Assembly: GCF_006476065.1 (NCBI RefSeq)
Contig: NZ_ML636798.1
Span: forward strand, 1,872,207-1,936,206
DNA length: 64,000 bases
Direction of reading: 5' to 3'
Source: Cognatiluteimonas lumbrici
GTDB taxonomy: Bacteria; Pseudomonadota; Gammaproteobacteria; Xanthomonadales; Xanthomonadaceae
Position 1 is the stretch's first letter, and each line of letters opens with the position of its first letter. The translations under genes and the position numbers were made by a program. Below the pieces are notes generated by a model. That model was not told where the DNA came from and made no database searches. It saw nothing but the letters and a program-made list of their open reading frames with translations. Shown in pieces: positions 15,655 to 21,452 of this stretch.

Positions 15655-15673
15655 AGTAATGGTTCTCATTCGC
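15655..15673 (+). promoter_or_regulatory. Fur-box-like operator
   Basis: The 19-mer centred on AATGGTTCTCATT matches 12 of 19 positions of the classical Fur consensus, including both outer AAT/ATT hexamer cores. It overlaps the first possible ATG and the expected +1. This suggests iron repression of the DUF2946 gene and the downstream TonB receptor. Confidence 0.55.
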
Positions 15674-16132
15674 GCCACGGGCAGGTGGACCGGCTTCGCA
15701 CGGGCGATGGCCGCGCTGGCGCTGTTCGCGGTGCTGGCGCTGGTGCTGTTGCCGACCAGCGGGCGCCTGGCCGGGCAGGTCCCCGGCGGTCCGGCCCCTT
15801 CGGTTTCGGCGGCCGGGGAGATGGCCGGGCACGCGCACGACCACGGCCATGGGCATGACGCTGGCCACGAAGCTGCGCACGGCCACGCCGCCGGGTCGCC
15901 GGACGCGGGCGGGCCGGGCGAGGCGCCGGATTCGCCACGACCCGCCCCGCACGAGGGGCATGCCGACTGTGCCTACTGCCCGCTGCTCGCGTCGGTGCTG
16001 CCGGTCGCCGTCCTTCCCTTGCCGCCGGCCACCGGGCGGGAGCACGACCGCTGGTATCCGCCGTTGCGCACCGCGCGGCTGGGCTACCTGCACCCCTGCG
16101 GGCTCGGCTCCCGCGGGCCGCCCCTCTCCTGA
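15659..16132 (+). CDS. His-rich DUF2946-like protein, probably metal-related
   Basis: 157 residues from the first ATG, which lies inside the Fur-like site; an ATG at 15707 ('MAALALFAVLAL') would put the start just before the signal segment and is a good alternative. After one hydrophobic segment comes a metal-ligand-rich stretch at about residues 56-78 (His alternating with Ala, Gly and Asp) and then 'HADCAYCPLL', the CxxC motif of the DUF2946 family. DUF2946 genes commonly sit beside TonB receptors and copper or iron uptake loci, as here (57 bases before the receptor). Function is not established; periplasmic metal binding is inferred. Confidence 0.65.
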   Translation: MVLIRATGRWTGFARAMAALALFAVLALVLLPTSGRLAGQVPGGPAPSVSAAGEMAGHAHDHGHGHDAGHEAAHGHAAGSPDAGGPGEAPDSPRPAPHEGHADCAYCPLLASVLPVAVLPLPPATGREHDRWYPPLRTARLGYLHPCGLGSRGPPLS

Positions 16133-16188
16133 CACCGAAGGCGTTCGAACGCGCGCCAAGCGCGACCTTTCGTGTTCAGGAGATCCAG

Positions 16189-18348
16189 ATGTCCAGCCTT
16201 TTCCGCGCGGCGCTGCGTGCGTCGTGCCTGTCCGCGGCCGTCGTGGCCGTGCTGTGTTTTCCCCTGCCCGCCGTTGCGGACGCCCCCGCCGAGGCGGAGG
16301 CCGATGCCGACCCCGCGGCGGACCCCCAGATGACCACGCTCGAGGCGGTGCGGGTGAGCGGTACGCGCGACCCGAACGAGGCCGAGCGCGCGCTCGTCCC
16401 GGGCGGCGTCAGCCTGCTCGACGGCGAAGCCTTCTACCAGCGGCCCGTCAACAACATGTCGGACGCCCTGCGCTACGTGCCGGGGCTGTGGACGGAGAGC
16501 GGCACCGGCGGCGACGCGGTGTACTTCTCGAGCCGCGGTTCAAACCTCGACGCGACCGGCTACGACGGCAACGGCATGAAGCTGTTCCAGGACGGCCTGC
16601 CGGTGACCACCGCCGACGGCAACAACCACAACCGCGCGCTGGATCCGGCCGCGGCGCGGCACGTGGTCGTCGCGCGCGGCGCCAACGCGCTGACCTACGG
16701 CGCCAGCACCCTTGGCGGCGCGGTCGACTTCACCTCGCCGACCGCGCGCAACAGCCCCGGCAGCCAGGCGTTCCTGGCCGCGGGCAGCCATGGCCTGCGC
16801 AATGCGCGGGTGACGCTGGGCGGCGTATCGGGCGACTTCGACGGCATGGTGACGCTCGACGCGAAGGAGCGCGACGGCTACCGCGTGCACAGCCGGCAGG
16901 ACCGCGGCGCGCTGTACGCCAACGCGGGCTGGCAGCAGGGCGACGGCTTCGACCTGCGCGTGTTCGCCACCTGGATCGACAGCGACGAGGAACTCGCCGG
17001 CCCGCTCACGCGCGCGCAGTTCGACGCCGACCCGTACCAGGCGCAGCCGTCCGCGGTCTCCGGCAACTACCAGTTGAACGTGCGTACCACGAGGCTGGCG
17101 GCGAAGGGCACGTGGCACGCCGGTGACGGGCGCCGTTTCGAGTTCGGCGTGTCCCGCGACGACCAGCACCTCTACCACCCGATCGTGGACAAGGTGATGG
17201 TGGACTTCGACGGCCCGGGGCCGCAGCCGCCGACCGAGGTGTTCAGCCTGCTCAAGGACACCGACCAGCGCACGACGGCGGCCATGGCGCGCTACAACGC
17301 GCGCTTCGGCGACCACGACGTGCTGGCCGGCATCAACCTGGCCTGGACCCGCGAGTGGGGTGGGCAGTACCGCAACGACGGCGGTCGCCGCAACGGCCTG
17401 TCCACCCGCGTGGACAACCGTTCCGGCAGCGTCGAGCTGTTCGTCGTCGATCGCTGGAAGTTCGCGCCGGGCTGGACGCTGGTCTACGGCGGGCAGGGCG
17501 TCGCCACCAGCCGCGACGTCCGCAATACCGCGGTCGCCAGCGGCGAACTGCGCAACCCGAAGGCGGACTACGCGTCGTTCAACCCGCGACTGGGCGTGAT
17601 CCGCGCGCTGGGCAACGGCGCGGAGGCGTATGCCAGCCTCGGCAGGCTGTACGAGGCGCCGACCACGTTCGAACTGGAGGACGACGTCCGCGGCGACGGC
17701 TCCACGCTCGACGCGATGCACGGCAACGTGGTGGAGGCGGGCCTGCGCGGCACGATCGCCGGCGACGCGTCGCGGCCGCACTGGAAGTGGGACGTGTCCG
17801 CGTACTACGCGCGCGTCCACGACGAGATCCTCTCCGTCGACGATCCCGACGCGCCGGGCACCAGCCTGTCCTCGAACGTCGACCGCACCATCCATGCCGG
17901 GGTCGAGGTGCTCGCGGGCGCGATCCTGCCGCTGGGCGCGGGTGCGCACAGCATCGAGCCGCTGGTCAGCGCGAGCTGGAACGCCTTCTCCTTCGACGGC
18001 GACCCCGACTACGGCGACAACACCTTGCCCGGCGCGCCGCGCTACGTGGTCCGCGGCGAGGTGATGTACCGCCACGACAGCGGCTTCTACGCGGGGCCGA
18101 CGTTCGACCTGGTCGGCAGGCGCCATGCGGATTTCAGCAACACCTACGAGGTGGGCGCGCACCAGTTGCTGGGCCTGCGCGTCGGCGTCGAGCGCGAGCG
18201 CTGGTCGCTGTTCGGCGAGGTGCGCAACCTACGCGACGAGGCGTATGTCGGGCAGCTCGCGGTGCGCGACCGCGCGGGCGCGGGCGACGCGCTGCTGCAG
18301 GCGGGGGAAACGCGCTCGCTCTACGTCGGCATGCGGCTCAGGTTCTGA
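16189..18348 (+). CDS. TonB-dependent outer-membrane receptor (FecA-like)
   Basis: 719 residues. The signal peptide is followed by an acidic spacer and a TonB-box-like 'TTLEAVRVSG'. The plug domain holds 'MSDALRYVPGLWTES', 'SSRGSNLDATGYDGNGMKLFQDGLP' compressed into the usual plug order, and 'RGANALTYGASTLGGAVDF'. The remainder is a 22-strand barrel ending in Phe ('GMRLRF'). The plug pattern resembles ferric citrate or other siderophore receptors. AGGAG precedes the ATG. With the Fur-like site and DUF2946 gene upstream, a role in iron-chelate import is the best inference; the ligand is unknown. The 3' end overlaps the convergent ada-like gene by 11 bases. Confidence 0.87.
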   Translation: MSSLFRAALRASCLSAAVVAVLCFPLPAVADAPAEAEADADPAADPQMTTLEAVRVSGTRDPNEAERALVPGGVSLLDGEAFYQRPVNNMSDALRYVPGLWTESGTGGDAVYFSSRGSNLDATGYDGNGMKLFQDGLPVTTADGNNHNRALDPAAARHVVVARGANALTYGASTLGGAVDFTSPTARNSPGSQAFLAAGSHGLRNARVTLGGVSGDFDGMVTLDAKERDGYRVHSRQDRGALYANAGWQQGDGFDLRVFATWIDSDEELAGPLTRAQFDADPYQAQPSAVSGNYQLNVRTTRLAAKGTWHAGDGRRFEFGVSRDDQHLYHPIVDKVMVDFDGPGPQPPTEVFSLLKDTDQRTTAAMARYNARFGDHDVLAGINLAWTREWGGQYRNDGGRRNGLSTRVDNRSGSVELFVVDRWKFAPGWTLVYGGQGVATSRDVRNTAVASGELRNPKADYASFNPRLGVIRALGNGAEAYASLGRLYEAPTTFELEDDVRGDGSTLDAMHGNVVEAGLRGTIAGDASRPHWKWDVSAYYARVHDEILSVDDPDAPGTSLSSNVDRTIHAGVEVLAGAILPLGAGAHSIEPLVSASWNAFSFDGDPDYGDNTLPGAPRYVVRGEVMYRHDSGFYAGPTFDLVGRRHADFSNTYEVGAHQLLGLRVGVERERWSLFGEVRNLRDEAYVGQLAVRDRAGAGDALLQAGETRSLYVGMRLRF

Positions 18349-19225
18349 TCGCGCCTTCGCGCTCGAGCAGGCGACGCTTGCGCTCCACGCCCCATCGGTA
18401 GCCGGACAGGCCGCCGTCGCTGCGCACCACGCGGTGGCACGGGATCGCCACCGCGAGGTGGTTGGCGGCGCAGGCGCCGGCGACCGCGCGTACCGCGCGC
18501 GGCTCGCCGATGCGCCGCGCGATCTCCGCGTAGGTCGCCTTGCTGCCGGGCGGGATCTTGCGCAGTGCGCGCCACACGCGTTCCTGGAACGCGGTGCCGC
18601 GCACGTCGAGCGGCAGGTCGAGGCCGATGCGCGGCGCTTCGACGAAGCCGACCACGGTGGCGACCACGCGCTCGTAGTCCGGGTCGCCGCCCACCAGTTC
18701 GGCCTTGGGGAAGCGGTCCTGCAGGTCGCGCGCGAGCGCATCCGGATCGTCGCCGAGCAGGATCGCGCACACGCCCTTGTCGCTGCTGGCGACCAGGATC
18801 GCGCCGAGCGAGCACTGTCCGATCGCGAATCGGATGCGCGCCTCCGCACCGCCTGCGCGCCATGCGCTCGGCTGCATGCCCAGGCGCTCGCTGGAGCGCT
18901 CGTAGAAACGGCTGCTGGAGCCGAAGCCGGCGTCGTGGATGGCATCGGTGATGGTGCGGCTGCGCACGAGCCGCTCGCGCAGGCGGCCGGCGCGGTGCGC
19001 GTCGGCGTAGGCCTTGGGGGTCAGGCCGGTCTGCGCCTTGAACACGCGGTGGAAATGCCACGGACTCATGCCGGTCGGCGCCGCCAGTTCGGCCAGGCTG
19101 GGCGCGGCCTCGGCGCGCTCGATGCGCCGGCAGGCCTCGGCGACCAGCGCCGCGTGGCGGACGCCGCTCTCGGGGCGGGAGCGGCGGGGGGCGGTGCTGG
19201 CGGGCATCGGATCGGGCTTCGGCAT
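18338..19225 (-). CDS. Ada-like AraC regulator/O6-methylguanine-DNA methyltransferase without the N-terminal phosphotriester domain
   Basis: 295 residues from the ATG at 19225; an in-frame GTG 21 bases upstream is also possible and neither has a strong Shine-Dalgarno. An AraC-type helix-turn-helix occupies about 25-125 ('SLAELAAPTGMSPWHFHRVF'), and the methyltransferase domain about 130-290 has the active site 'IPCHRVV' with C263 plus 'GTAFQERVWRAL'. The N-terminal Cys-zinc domain of E. coli Ada, which senses methylphosphotriesters, is missing, so induction by that route is not expected. The protein should still repair O6-methylguanine and bind DNA. Confidence 0.87.
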   Translation of the reverse strand: MPKPDPMPASTAPRRSRPESGVRHAALVAEACRRIERAEAAPSLAELAAPTGMSPWHFHRVFKAQTGLTPKAYADAHRAGRLRERLVRSRTITDAIHDAGFGSSSRFYERSSERLGMQPSAWRAGGAEARIRFAIGQCSLGAILVASSDKGVCAILLGDDPDALARDLQDRFPKAELVGGDPDYERVVATVVGFVEAPRIGLDLPLDVRGTAFQERVWRALRKIPPGSKATYAEIARRIGEPRAVRAVAGACAANHLAVAIPCHRVVRSDGGLSGYRWGVERKRRLLEREGAIRT

Positions 19226-19390
19226 GGCGACGGAGCCATTGTGCACCCCCGGGGCACAGTGGCACTCCGCTCCTTGCGGTTCATTGCGAGCTCGTCCCGG
19301 TAACCTTTACACATAAGCACATGGAGCGTAGCGTCGGGGGCGCGCATGCTGGGTCCGTCGCGATCGGCGACCTGACCGGAGTCCCTTGCC

Positions 19391-20089
19391 ATGTCCCTTC
19401 CCCTGAAACCCCTCGCACTGACCGTCGCGCTGGTCCTGGCCGCCGGCTGCGACAGCGCGGCCTCCCCGGACGCCGCCGCGACGGCAGGCACCGACACCAG
19501 CGCCGTTGCCGCCGACGCCGCGCCGGCCCCCGACAGCGCTGCCTCCGAGGTGGCCGCGCCGCAACTGCAGGCCGCGATGCGCGACCTGTGGCACGGGCAC
19601 ATCGTGCATTCCCGCGACTACGCGCTGGCGGTGCACGCCGGCGACGAGGCCGCGGCCGATGCCGCGGCGGACGCGGTGGTCGCGAATGCCCGCCAGATCG
19701 CGGACGCGGTCGCCGGCTTCTACGGCGACGCCGGCGGAGAACAGATGATGACGCTGCTCGCCGGGCACTGGGGCGCGGTCAAGGCCATGACCGACGCGCG
19801 TGCCGGCGGCGACGAAGCCGCCGCGACCCAGGCGATGAACGACCTGACCGCGAACGCCGGCGCCATCGCGGCCTTCCTCGCGGGCGCCAATCCCAATCTG
19901 CCCGAAGATGCCGTGCGCGGCATGCTGCTGGCGCACGGCGCGCACCACGCGCAGCAGGTCGGCCTGATCATGAAGGGCGACACCGCCGGCGAGGCAGAGA
20001 GCTGGACGGCGATGCAGGCGCACATGGACATGATCGCCGACGCGCTGGCGGATGCGATCGCGAAGCAATTCCCGGACAAGGCGGCCTGA
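19391..20089 (+). CDS. His-rich helical-bundle lipoprotein, function unknown
   Basis: 232 residues. The lipobox is 'LAAGC' with C20. An Ala/Asp-rich linker leads to a helical domain (about 55-230) in which each predicted long helix carries His: 'LWHGHIVHSRDY' (H68, H70, H73), 'LLAGHWGAVK' (H126), 'LLAHGAHHAQQ' (H182, H185, H186) and 'MQAHMDMI' (H211). The pattern recalls soluble helical proteins in Bacillus and Paenibacillus that databases often mislabel as acetylglutamate kinase; that comparison is from memory. A metal or heme site within a four-helix bundle is a reasonable inference. The SufR-like regulator begins 3 bases after the stop. Confidence 0.7.
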   Translation: MSLPLKPLALTVALVLAAGCDSAASPDAAATAGTDTSAVAADAAPAPDSAASEVAAPQLQAAMRDLWHGHIVHSRDYALAVHAGDEAAADAAADAVVANARQIADAVAGFYGDAGGEQMMTLLAGHWGAVKAMTDARAGGDEAAATQAMNDLTANAGAIAAFLAGANPNLPEDAVRGMLLAHGAHHAQQVGLIMKGDTAGEAESWTAMQAHMDMIADALADAIAKQFPDKAA

Positions 20090-20092
20090 TCC

Positions 20093-20737
20093 ATGGCGCA
20101 AGGGCTCGCACGCTTCGGCGACACCCAGCAACGCCTCCTCCGGCAGTTGCTGCAGGCCCGCGACGGCCTGGGTGTCGAGGAGTTGTGCGAGCGCCTGCGC
20201 ATCACCCACAACGCGGTGCGCCAGCACCTCACCACCCTCACCGTGCGCGGCCTGGTGCAACGGATCGCCCCGCTGCGGACCGGGGGGCGTCCGCAGGCGC
20301 GCTACGCGCTCACCGGCGAAGGCCGCGAGCTGTTCCCGCGCAATTACGGCGCGATCGCCGCCGCGCTGGTCGCGCAGCTGCAGCTGAAGCTCGGCAACGA
20401 CGAGGTCGGGACCCTGCTGCAGGAGCTCGGCAGCACGGTGGCGGCGACCCAGCCGGCGCTTCCGGACGGAAGCAACGAGGCGCTGGCGCGGGCCCTGGCC
20501 GACCGCCTGGACGCGCTGGGATACGAGGCGATCCCGGCGCGCCACGGCGACGACTGGCAGGTGGAGGCCTTCAACTGCGTGTTCCATGGCCTGGCCAGGC
20601 GCCACCCGGAAGTGTGCCGCTTCGACATCGCCTACATGGAAGGCGTCAGCCGCCGGCGCGTGCACCACATGGAGTGCATCGTGCGCGGCGGGCACGTGTG
20701 CAGGTTCCGCCTGGGGAAAGAGGCGCCGCGCACCTGA
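20093..20737 (+). CDS. SufR-like iron-sulfur HTH transcriptional regulator
   Basis: 214 residues. The N-terminal winged helix (about 8-80) contains 'LRITHNAVRQHLTTLTVRGLV' and the wing 'GRPQARYALT'. The C-terminal sensor part has four cysteines, C162 ('FNCVF'), C175 ('EVCRF'), C195 ('MECIV') and C203 ('HVCRF'), arranged as in SufR-type repressors that ligate a [4Fe-4S] cluster and switch DNA binding with its state. It follows the His-rich lipoprotein by 3 bases and is surely co-transcribed. No suf genes are in the window, so its targets are unknown; it may regulate its own operon. Confidence 0.78.
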   Translation: MAQGLARFGDTQQRLLRQLLQARDGLGVEELCERLRITHNAVRQHLTTLTVRGLVQRIAPLRTGGRPQARYALTGEGRELFPRNYGAIAAALVAQLQLKLGNDEVGTLLQELGSTVAATQPALPDGSNEALARALADRLDALGYEAIPARHGDDWQVEAFNCVFHGLARRHPEVCRFDIAYMEGVSRRRVHHMECIVRGGHVCRFRLGKEAPRT

Positions 20738-20753
20738 CTGCAGGCGGGTCGGG

Positions 20754-20759
20754 CACAAT
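20754..20759 (+). promoter_or_regulatory. Weak -10-like hexamer before the carboxylesterase gene
   Basis: CACAAT ends 6 bases before the ATG at 20766. It fits the leaderless spacing but lacks the first T. Confidence 0.25.
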
Positions 20760-20765
20760 GCCCCC

Positions 20766-21452
20766 ATGGACCTGCTGCAGACCGTCGAACACGAGACCGG
20801 CCCGTCGCCCGGGTGGTGCGTCCTCTGGCTGCACGGCCTCGGGGCCGATGGACACGACTTCGCGCCGATCGTGCCGGAGCTGGTGCGGCCGGGCTGGCCG
20901 GCGCTGCGCTTCGTGTTCCCGCACGCGCCGGTGCGCCCGGTCACGATCAACAACGGCATGCGCATGCGTGCCTGGTACGACATCCGCAACTTCAGCGCCG
21001 ACGAGCTGGGCGGCGGCGACCGCGCCGACAGCGCCGGCGTGCTCGAGTCGGTCGCGCAGGTGGAGGCGCTGGTCGCGCGCGAGGCCGAGCGCGGGATCCC
21101 GCCGTCTCGGCTGCTGCTGGCCGGGTTCTCCCAGGGCGGCGCGATCACGCTCGCCGCGGGCCTGCGCCGCAAGCAGCCGCTGGCCGGACTGGTCGCCCTG
21201 TCCACCTACCTGCCGATGGCGCCGCAGGCCCAGGCCCACCTCGCGCCGGAGGCCCTGCGGCAGCCGGTGTTCATGGCCCACGGCAGCCAGGACCCGGTGG
21301 TGCCGCCCACCGCCGGCGAGCACAGCCGCAAGGTGCTCGAGTCGCTCGGCTTCGCGGTCGAGTGGCATGCCTACCCGATGGCCCACGCCGTCTGCCCCGA
21401 CGAGATCCGCGACCTGGGCGACTGGCTGGAACGGCGGTTCGCCAGCGGCTGA
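20766..21452 (+). CDS. Alpha/beta-hydrolase carboxylesterase (phospholipase/carboxylesterase family)
   Basis: 228 residues, standard size for the EstB/acyl-protein-thioesterase group. The nucleophile elbow is 'GFSQGG' with S122, the acid is D176 in 'HGSQDPVVP' and the base is H207 in 'YPMAHAVCP'. 'LHGLGADGHDF' forms the oxyanion region. It is a cytoplasmic hydrolase of short-chain esters with no signal peptide; the physiological substrate is unknown. Its stop precedes the algZ start by 2 bases, so it may head the algZ-algR-hemC transcript. Confidence 0.88.
   Translation: MDLLQTVEHETGPSPGWCVLWLHGLGADGHDFAPIVPELVRPGWPALRFVFPHAPVRPVTINNGMRMRAWYDIRNFSADELGGGDRADSAGVLESVAQVEALVAREAERGIPPSRLLLAGFSQGGAITLAAGLRRKQPLAGLVALSTYLPMAPQAQAHLAPEALRQPVFMAHGSQDPVVPPTAGEHSRKVLESLGFAVEWHAYPMAHAVCPDEIRDLGDWLERRFASG

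Follow-up and report, generated by a model that had tools for sequence, protein, structure and literature searches.

In the 64,000-nucleotide stretch of Cognatiluteimonas lumbrici DNA analysed here (the window; the genome carrying it is 2.36 Mb), a gene for a SufR-like regulator directly follows a gene for an exported protein bearing several His residues. This arrangement raises the question of whether a repressor of the Fe-S type controls an envelope protein that binds metal. A first-pass annotation had proposed such a pairing, with a SufR four-Cys pattern in the regulator and a buried metal or heme site in a four-helix lipoprotein. Both of the open reading frames that it described were recovered. 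The gene for the exported protein (232 aa) occupies 19391-20089 on the plus strand, and its product is predicted to comprise a signal peptide with AAGC (C20), a linker and three 56-residue hairpin repeats. The gene for the winged-helix regulator (214 aa) lies at 20093-20737 on the same strand, and the gap between the two genes is 3 bases. The residues named as candidate ligands (H70, H73, H126, H182, H186 and H211 in the exported protein; C162, C175, C195 and C203 in the regulator) are all present.

The regulator gene accompanies the exported protein gene in all close loci

To examine the pairing, 58 loci were reduced to 46 distinct exported-protein sequences, of which 40 were close and 6 distant. 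The regulator gene lay directly downstream of the exported protein gene, on the same strand, in all 40 distinct close loci. Intergenic distances ranged from -4 to 88 nt across these 40 loci, as counted from the start of the BLAST match, which is not a proven start codon. Loci with the exported protein gene in the named collection came from Luteimonas, Lysobacter, Thermomonas, Frateuria and other Lysobacteraceae. No downstream same-strand regulator gene was present at the 6 distant loci (L020-L024 and L067, the last from Bradyrhizobium), and none was found within 8.5 kb at 6 further distant plasmid loci.

The pairing was also followed in samples of genomes. In the family sample, the exported protein was found in 22 of 149 genomes, 19 with a close homolog and 3 with a distant homolog only (G008, G095 and G121). 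The regulator was found in 19 of the 149, and these were the same 19 genomes that carried a close exported-protein homolog. In the order sample, the exported protein was found in 17 of 250 genomes and the regulator in 25. The 17 strong regulators (at least 45% identity) fell in exactly the 17 genomes with the exported protein; the other 8 genomes had weak regulator homologs only (22-33% identity) and were without the exported protein. One Lysobacteraceae genome held a second regulator copy (42%). The first-pass annotation had named, as a finding that would speak against its proposal, homologs that never co-occur with the regulator. This was looked for, and the pairing was constant in the 40 close loci and in both genome samples. 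A search of the open-licence literature, limited in scope, returned nothing on the pairing, which does not prove its absence there.

Short intergenic spacing by itself is common in bacteria. That two unrelated genes are adjacent here by chance is vanishingly improbable and was rejected on the locus counts, since the pair was adjacent in every distinct close locus, whereas the best-conserved flanking genes reached 6 of 14 long loci. These flanking genes encode an esterase, a kinase, a LytTR protein and hemC, each near the pair in 6 of the 14. A DedA-rhodanese gene was near the pair in 2 of 14, and the TonB receptor, DUF2946 protein and Ada-like genes were near the orthologous pair in none. A wider conserved operon was rejected, the pair being the sole constant across the 14 long loci.

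Other genes were observed beside the pair. A His-rich DUF2946 protein and then a TonB-dependent receptor are encoded at 15659-18348 of the window, two genes upstream of the pair, and are likely to form a metal- or cofactor-uptake pair. In a divergent Ada-like gene at 18338-19246, a helix-turn-helix of the AraC type is joined to a domain of the O6-methylguanine DNA methyltransferase kind.

A conserved element upstream of the pair is a probable operator

Upstream regions were first aligned for 24 of 27 distinct close loci, with L017-L019 omitted, as their start codons were unsettled; the later count covered all 40. CTTTACACA was present in all 24 aligned upstream regions and was followed by T in 23 of them, within surrounding sequence that had diverged. 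It was found upstream of the pair in 39 of the 40 distinct close loci. The remaining locus, L082, carries CTTTGCACAT instead, and ATTGTGCG stands on the right of it. In the window, the probable operator spans 19305-19328 on the plus strand and consists of CTTTACACAT at 19305-19314 and a weak right arm. The right part of the element had T at +16 in 23, G at +18 in 19 and G at +20 in 17 of the 24 regions. L009 and L011 have the full dyad (TTACACA-N9-TGTGTAA); in the window copy it is weak. The element was absent from the 6 distant loci and from the 6 further distant plasmid loci. In its own genome, CTTTACACAT occurred once and the reversed control did not occur; an extended pattern, allowed up to 3 mismatches, likewise occurred once, as did its control pattern.

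A -35-like TTTACA (19306-19311) lies inside the candidate operator. A putative -10 (TAGCGT, 19329-19334, plus strand) is placed 17 bases after TTTACA, with its T conserved in 18, its A in 18 and its final T in 13 of 24 regions. A scan for consensus promoters and terminators made no call, including at the element and the putative -10. Read as the operator of the regulator over the promoter, the element would imply repression and autoregulation. It is probable, from its position and conservation, that the CTTTACACAT element is the operator of the neighbouring regulator. We consider a local operon, with the regulator acting at its own promoter, to be highly probable on these sequence data.

The leader also contains a hairpin, GTCGC-N5-GCGAC (19357-19371, plus strand), 19 bases before the ATG and just upstream of the ribosome-binding region. 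The hairpin pattern was found in 20 of 24 orthologous leaders, and the single hairpins were mostly not better than shuffled sequences. An Rfam scan of 19200-20900 gave no match.

The regulator resembles SufR in part and lies apart from suf

The regulator matched TIGR02702 (SufR_cyano) with an E value of 8.5e-16 over model positions 1-205 of 208, and its score of 58.3 bits was below the membership cut-off of 178.8. In the structural model, a MarR-type winged helix is followed by a C-terminal domain of lower certainty (mean pLDDT 83.0). The codons of C162, C175, C195 and C203, the candidate cluster ligands, lie at 20576-20701 on the plus strand. These four Cys, together with C32, were invariant in all 40 regulators.

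A study of M. tuberculosis SufR reports that C203, C216 and C244 are essential and that C242 is not (PMC6034842). The spacing of C162, C175 and C203 in the regulator, 13 and 28, is the same as that of these three essential residues, and it was held in all 40 regulators. One review gives the SufR four-Cys pattern as C-X12-C-X13-C-X14-C (PMC8593673), which the C-X12-C-X19-C-X7-C of the regulator does not match. A second review gives the SufR ligands as C164, C171 and C206 (PMC13421787), and the two reviews disagree. As far as these sources go, the claim of a SufR four-Cys pattern held for the three Cys spaced as in M. tuberculosis SufR, but not for the four-Cys pattern of the review or for the TIGR02702 cut-off. 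Judging from its sequence, the regulator has a reasonably good probability of carrying an Fe-S cluster.

The same four Cys were found in L059, L070 and L071, which are relatives in other contexts, so the Cys residues are no argument for this particular pairing. The SufR-like L070 and L071 adjoin acyl-CoA dehydrogenase genes (in Shinella and Paraburkholderia), and this type is perhaps another SufR-like group outside suf. For the relative L059, Pfam gave a match to MetOD1 (Methanogen output domain 1) at E 1.4e-4. An unexpected fold link was observed for the C-terminal domain of the regulator (20093-20737, model m4e9662656d05): Foldseek matched a portion of it to BcsD/CesD, a subunit of cellulose synthase, with E about 2e-4 and TM about 0.44-0.47.

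We then considered suf in the same genome. The sufB gene lies about 276 kb from the pair, so that the earlier statement that no suf or isc gene is near holds for sufB; a search of the genome for a NifU_N (IscU-type) gene gave none. The suf genes are headed by the gene for an Rrf2-family regulator that matches TIGR02944 above its cut-off. None of the element variants that were searched for occurred across the 8.5 kb suf region. SufR would be expected to lie with suf; here suf has its own TIGR02944 Rrf2 regulator. By position, the Rrf2 protein is the evident suf regulator, which leaves the SufR-like protein to its own operon. Control of suf by the SufR-like regulator was rejected on the distance, the Rrf2 head gene and the lack of element variants in that region.

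The exported protein is predicted to consist of three hairpin repeats

In the 232-residue exported protein, an Ala-rich linker of some 36 residues joins the signal peptide, which bears AAGC, to a helical domain. The lipobox of the window copy is AAGC (C20) with Ala at -3. The lipid Cys is present in several Luteimonas-type relatives, and a signal peptide without this Cys was found in, for example, L008, L010, L012, L036 and L037. The description of the protein as a lipoprotein thus fits the window copy but is not general. Orthologs without the lipid Cys (L008, L010, L012, L016 and L017) are His-rich after the signal peptide, with stretches such as QAHEGPH, AHHADE and QDAHHAAH; in L008, L010 and L012, cleavage after Ala would give an N-terminal His.

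The helical domain had been described as four helices. A profile shift scan gave peaks at 56 residues (z 5.0) and 112 residues (z 4.1), and hhalign paired three 56-residue pieces without gaps, so that H70, H126 and H182 correspond to one another, as do N99, N155 and H211. On the plus strand, repeat 1 (residues 57-112, 19559-19726) carries H70 and N99, repeat 2 (residues 113-168, 19727-19894) carries H126 and N155, and repeat 3 (residues 169-225, 19895-20065) carries H182, H186 and H211. The hhalign probabilities were 97.4% for repeats 1 and 2, 75.9% for repeats 1 and 3 and 85.7% for repeats 2 and 3. When single sequences were scanned, a shift of 56 was best in 11 of 17 and was outside the top three in L016, L064 and L066. 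The AlphaFold model (mean pLDDT 95.4) has hairpin loops at 83-85, 139-141 and 195-197, which lie midway, within half a residue, between positions 70 and 99, 126 and 155, and 182 and 211. These six residues should therefore share one level of the bundle. DSSP on the model gave helices 2 and 3 as continuous through Y111-G112; judged by its homology to the loop that separates repeats 2 and 3, Y111-G112 may be the corner between these helices. By repeat homology, the mature domain is predicted to contain three hairpins, six helices in all. The four-helix bundle was rejected on the repeat scan, the hhalign pairing and the hairpin loops of the model.

Pfam and NCBIfam scans of the exported protein and its relatives gave no family, only weak unrelated matches. 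The best E value in a PDB sequence search with the exported protein was 0.32, and the helical protein 9dm3 (PDB sequence match, E 0.0073) was not accepted as a relative. Foldseek returned nothing for the exported protein at E 0.001. The best structural match was the designed six-helix barrel 8qad (Z 9.7, 143 residues, rmsd 4.5); microbial rhodopsins followed with Z values of up to 9.2, and scores of this size may reflect no more than a common helical arrangement.

Homologs with 24-44% identity are located on plasmids of Paenibacillus, Cytobacillus, Niallia, Planococcus, Nocardioides, Methylocystis and Bradyrhizobium. The plasmid collection held 11 records with the family, of which 7 were examined. 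The family was found in 2 of 299 genomes of the phylum sample, its own genome and one more of the order, so that the Bacillota and Actinomycetota members are known from the plasmid collection alone. The neighbours of the distant relatives were mixed. On the Planococcus plasmid, a gene annotated as copper amine oxidase (L066:3908-5269) encodes the exported domain duplicated in tandem, with a C-terminus that resembles a sorting signal, and it adjoins a gene annotated as plastocyanin/azurin. At L024:1405-3286, the gene for a distant paralog with a His-rich N-terminus precedes, on the same strand, one for a protein of outer-membrane type (Phenol_MetA_deg), which carries a CASCGC motif close to its start.

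Conserved His residues suggest a metal site

In a 17-sequence alignment covering three phyla, H70, N99, Y111, G112, H126, F162, A166, H182, H211 and F227 were invariant. Among the 40 distinct close orthologs, H70, H126, H182, H186 and H211 were present in all, and N99 was replaced by Asp in one. H73, which the first-pass annotation had counted among the candidates, was present in 27 of the 40 and was rejected as a conserved ligand. H186 forms an i,i+4 pair with H182; it was present throughout the regulated clade (40 of 40) and in 1 of 6 distant relatives. The conserved His residues sit in helices 1, 3, 5 and 6.

By helical phase, H70, H126 and H182 lie 23 degrees from the hydrophobic moment (p 0.003), which makes it very likely that these three symmetric His face the core. 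For N99, N155 and H211, the deviation from the moments is 57-67 degrees when averaged over repeats; taken alone, H211 deviates by 77-107 degrees. Being off the core-facing side, this fourth His may stay outside the site. The invariant His residues suggest that a metal is held by the exported protein, and we lean towards the presence of a metal site.

Discussion

In the model proposed here, a self-contained two-gene operon would encode the exported protein and then a SufR-like repressor. The repressor would bind CTTTACACAT and the partly symmetric right arm over the -35, controlling both genes. Its Fe-S cluster would be held by C162, C175 and C203, with C195 as a candidate fourth ligand, and the repressor would release DNA when the cluster is lost or changed through oxidants, NO, copper or iron shortage. 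In the exported protein, H70, H126 and H182 would face the core, and H211, joined in the regulated clade by H186, would lie at or near the same level and might complete a transition-metal site. The exported protein may then buffer, scavenge or use metal in the envelope during attack on cytoplasmic Fe-S clusters.

Copper attacks Fe-S clusters, and a paper so titled is among the references of PMC8593673. Copper is our first guess for the metal because of this attack, the all-His ligands, the export of the protein and the plastocyanin/azurin-annotated gene beside the Planococcus relative. The whole chain, in which an Fe-S-type repressor controls an exported, probably metal-binding, six-helix protein, stands a little short of an even chance in our estimate. 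It is somewhat unlikely that the protein represents a class of envelope metalloproteins not described before, in which a naturally occurring six-helix bundle of pseudo-threefold symmetry carries a His ring at its waist, with members in Pseudomonadota, Bacillota and Actinomycetota. The same degree of doubt applies to the accompanying idea that, in Lysobacterales, such a protein is under a dedicated SufR-type Fe-S sensor, through which damage to cytoplasmic Fe-S clusters switches on metal capture outside the inner membrane.

The four Cys could instead be a zinc site or a thiol switch, or the regulator could sense metal directly, giving a metal- or oxidant-inducible operon with no Fe-S cluster. 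The invariant Cys are four and not three, H165 (40 of 40 regulators) and H192 (37 of 40) lie near them, the TIGR02702 score is far under the SufR cut-off, and the C-terminal domain is predicted at lower confidence. Against this, three of the Cys are spaced like the essential ligands of M. tuberculosis SufR (PMC6034842), and the match to the SufR model covers almost all of that model. We judge this alternative unlikely and prefer an Fe-S cluster in the regulator.

For the exported protein, heme or a hemerythrin-like di-iron centre, as in a gas or redox protein, would be an alternative to a mononuclear metal. Hemerythrin is a helical bundle with several His residues, an HxxxH pair, a later Asp and an HxxxE ligand pair. 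The exported protein is likewise a predicted helical bundle, with five His in the clade, an HxxxH pair (H182/H186) and a later invariant D217. However, no Glu follows a conserved His by four residues, and position 130 is Val in all 27 close orthologs compared, so that the Glu ligand position of hemerythrin is missing. The protein also differs from hemerythrin in its three-hairpin repeat, 17 members gave no hemerythrin Pfam match at E 0.1, its sequence contains no CxxCH, and H186 is missing from 5 of the 6 distant relatives. We judge a heme or di-iron protein unlikely. Equally unlikely is a purely structural role for the conserved His, or one in binding a small organic molecule, the polar ring merely holding the bundle together with no metal. 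Asn at two of the six symmetric positions would suit such a ring, as would the mixed neighbours of the distant relatives and the lack of an identified metal partner, but four His are invariant across phyla, and three of them are symmetric and on the buried side.

SufR binds a [4Fe-4S] cluster and works at its own promoter through an inverted repeat. The regulator is like the SufR of cyanobacteria, Mycobacterium and Streptomyces as a predicted winged-helix repressor with a C-terminal Cys site, and it is probably autoregulated. It differs in the place of its fourth Cys, its non-suf target, its gammaproteobacterial host and its sub-cut-off score. It is therefore SufR-like in its candidate ligands and in a likely site at its own promoter, and stands outside SufR by cut-off, four-Cys pattern and suf linkage. 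One review gives the SufR site as CAAC-N6-GTTG and describes SufR as a regulator that occurs only in Cyanobacteria and some Actinobacteria and serves suf alone (PMC8593673). The candidate operator here, a partial dyad, differs in sequence from that site. The Rrf2-type suf regulator of Xanthomonads (TIGR02944), which heads suf in the same genome, belongs to another protein family.

Taken together, these results suggest that the regulator probably controls the adjoining exported protein in relatives of Luteimonas and Dyella. It would be a known kind of sensor with a new target, and the family of the target is unnamed in Pfam and NCBIfam. That family is widespread and conserved; its repeat architecture is simple and its candidate ligands number four or five, so that two small proteins and a single promoter suffice for direct tests of both signal and ligand. 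If the model is true, a SufR-like type of sensor has been recruited to an envelope protein in a gammaproteobacterium that has another family of suf regulator, and these cells may link the state of their Fe-S clusters to metal handling in the envelope.
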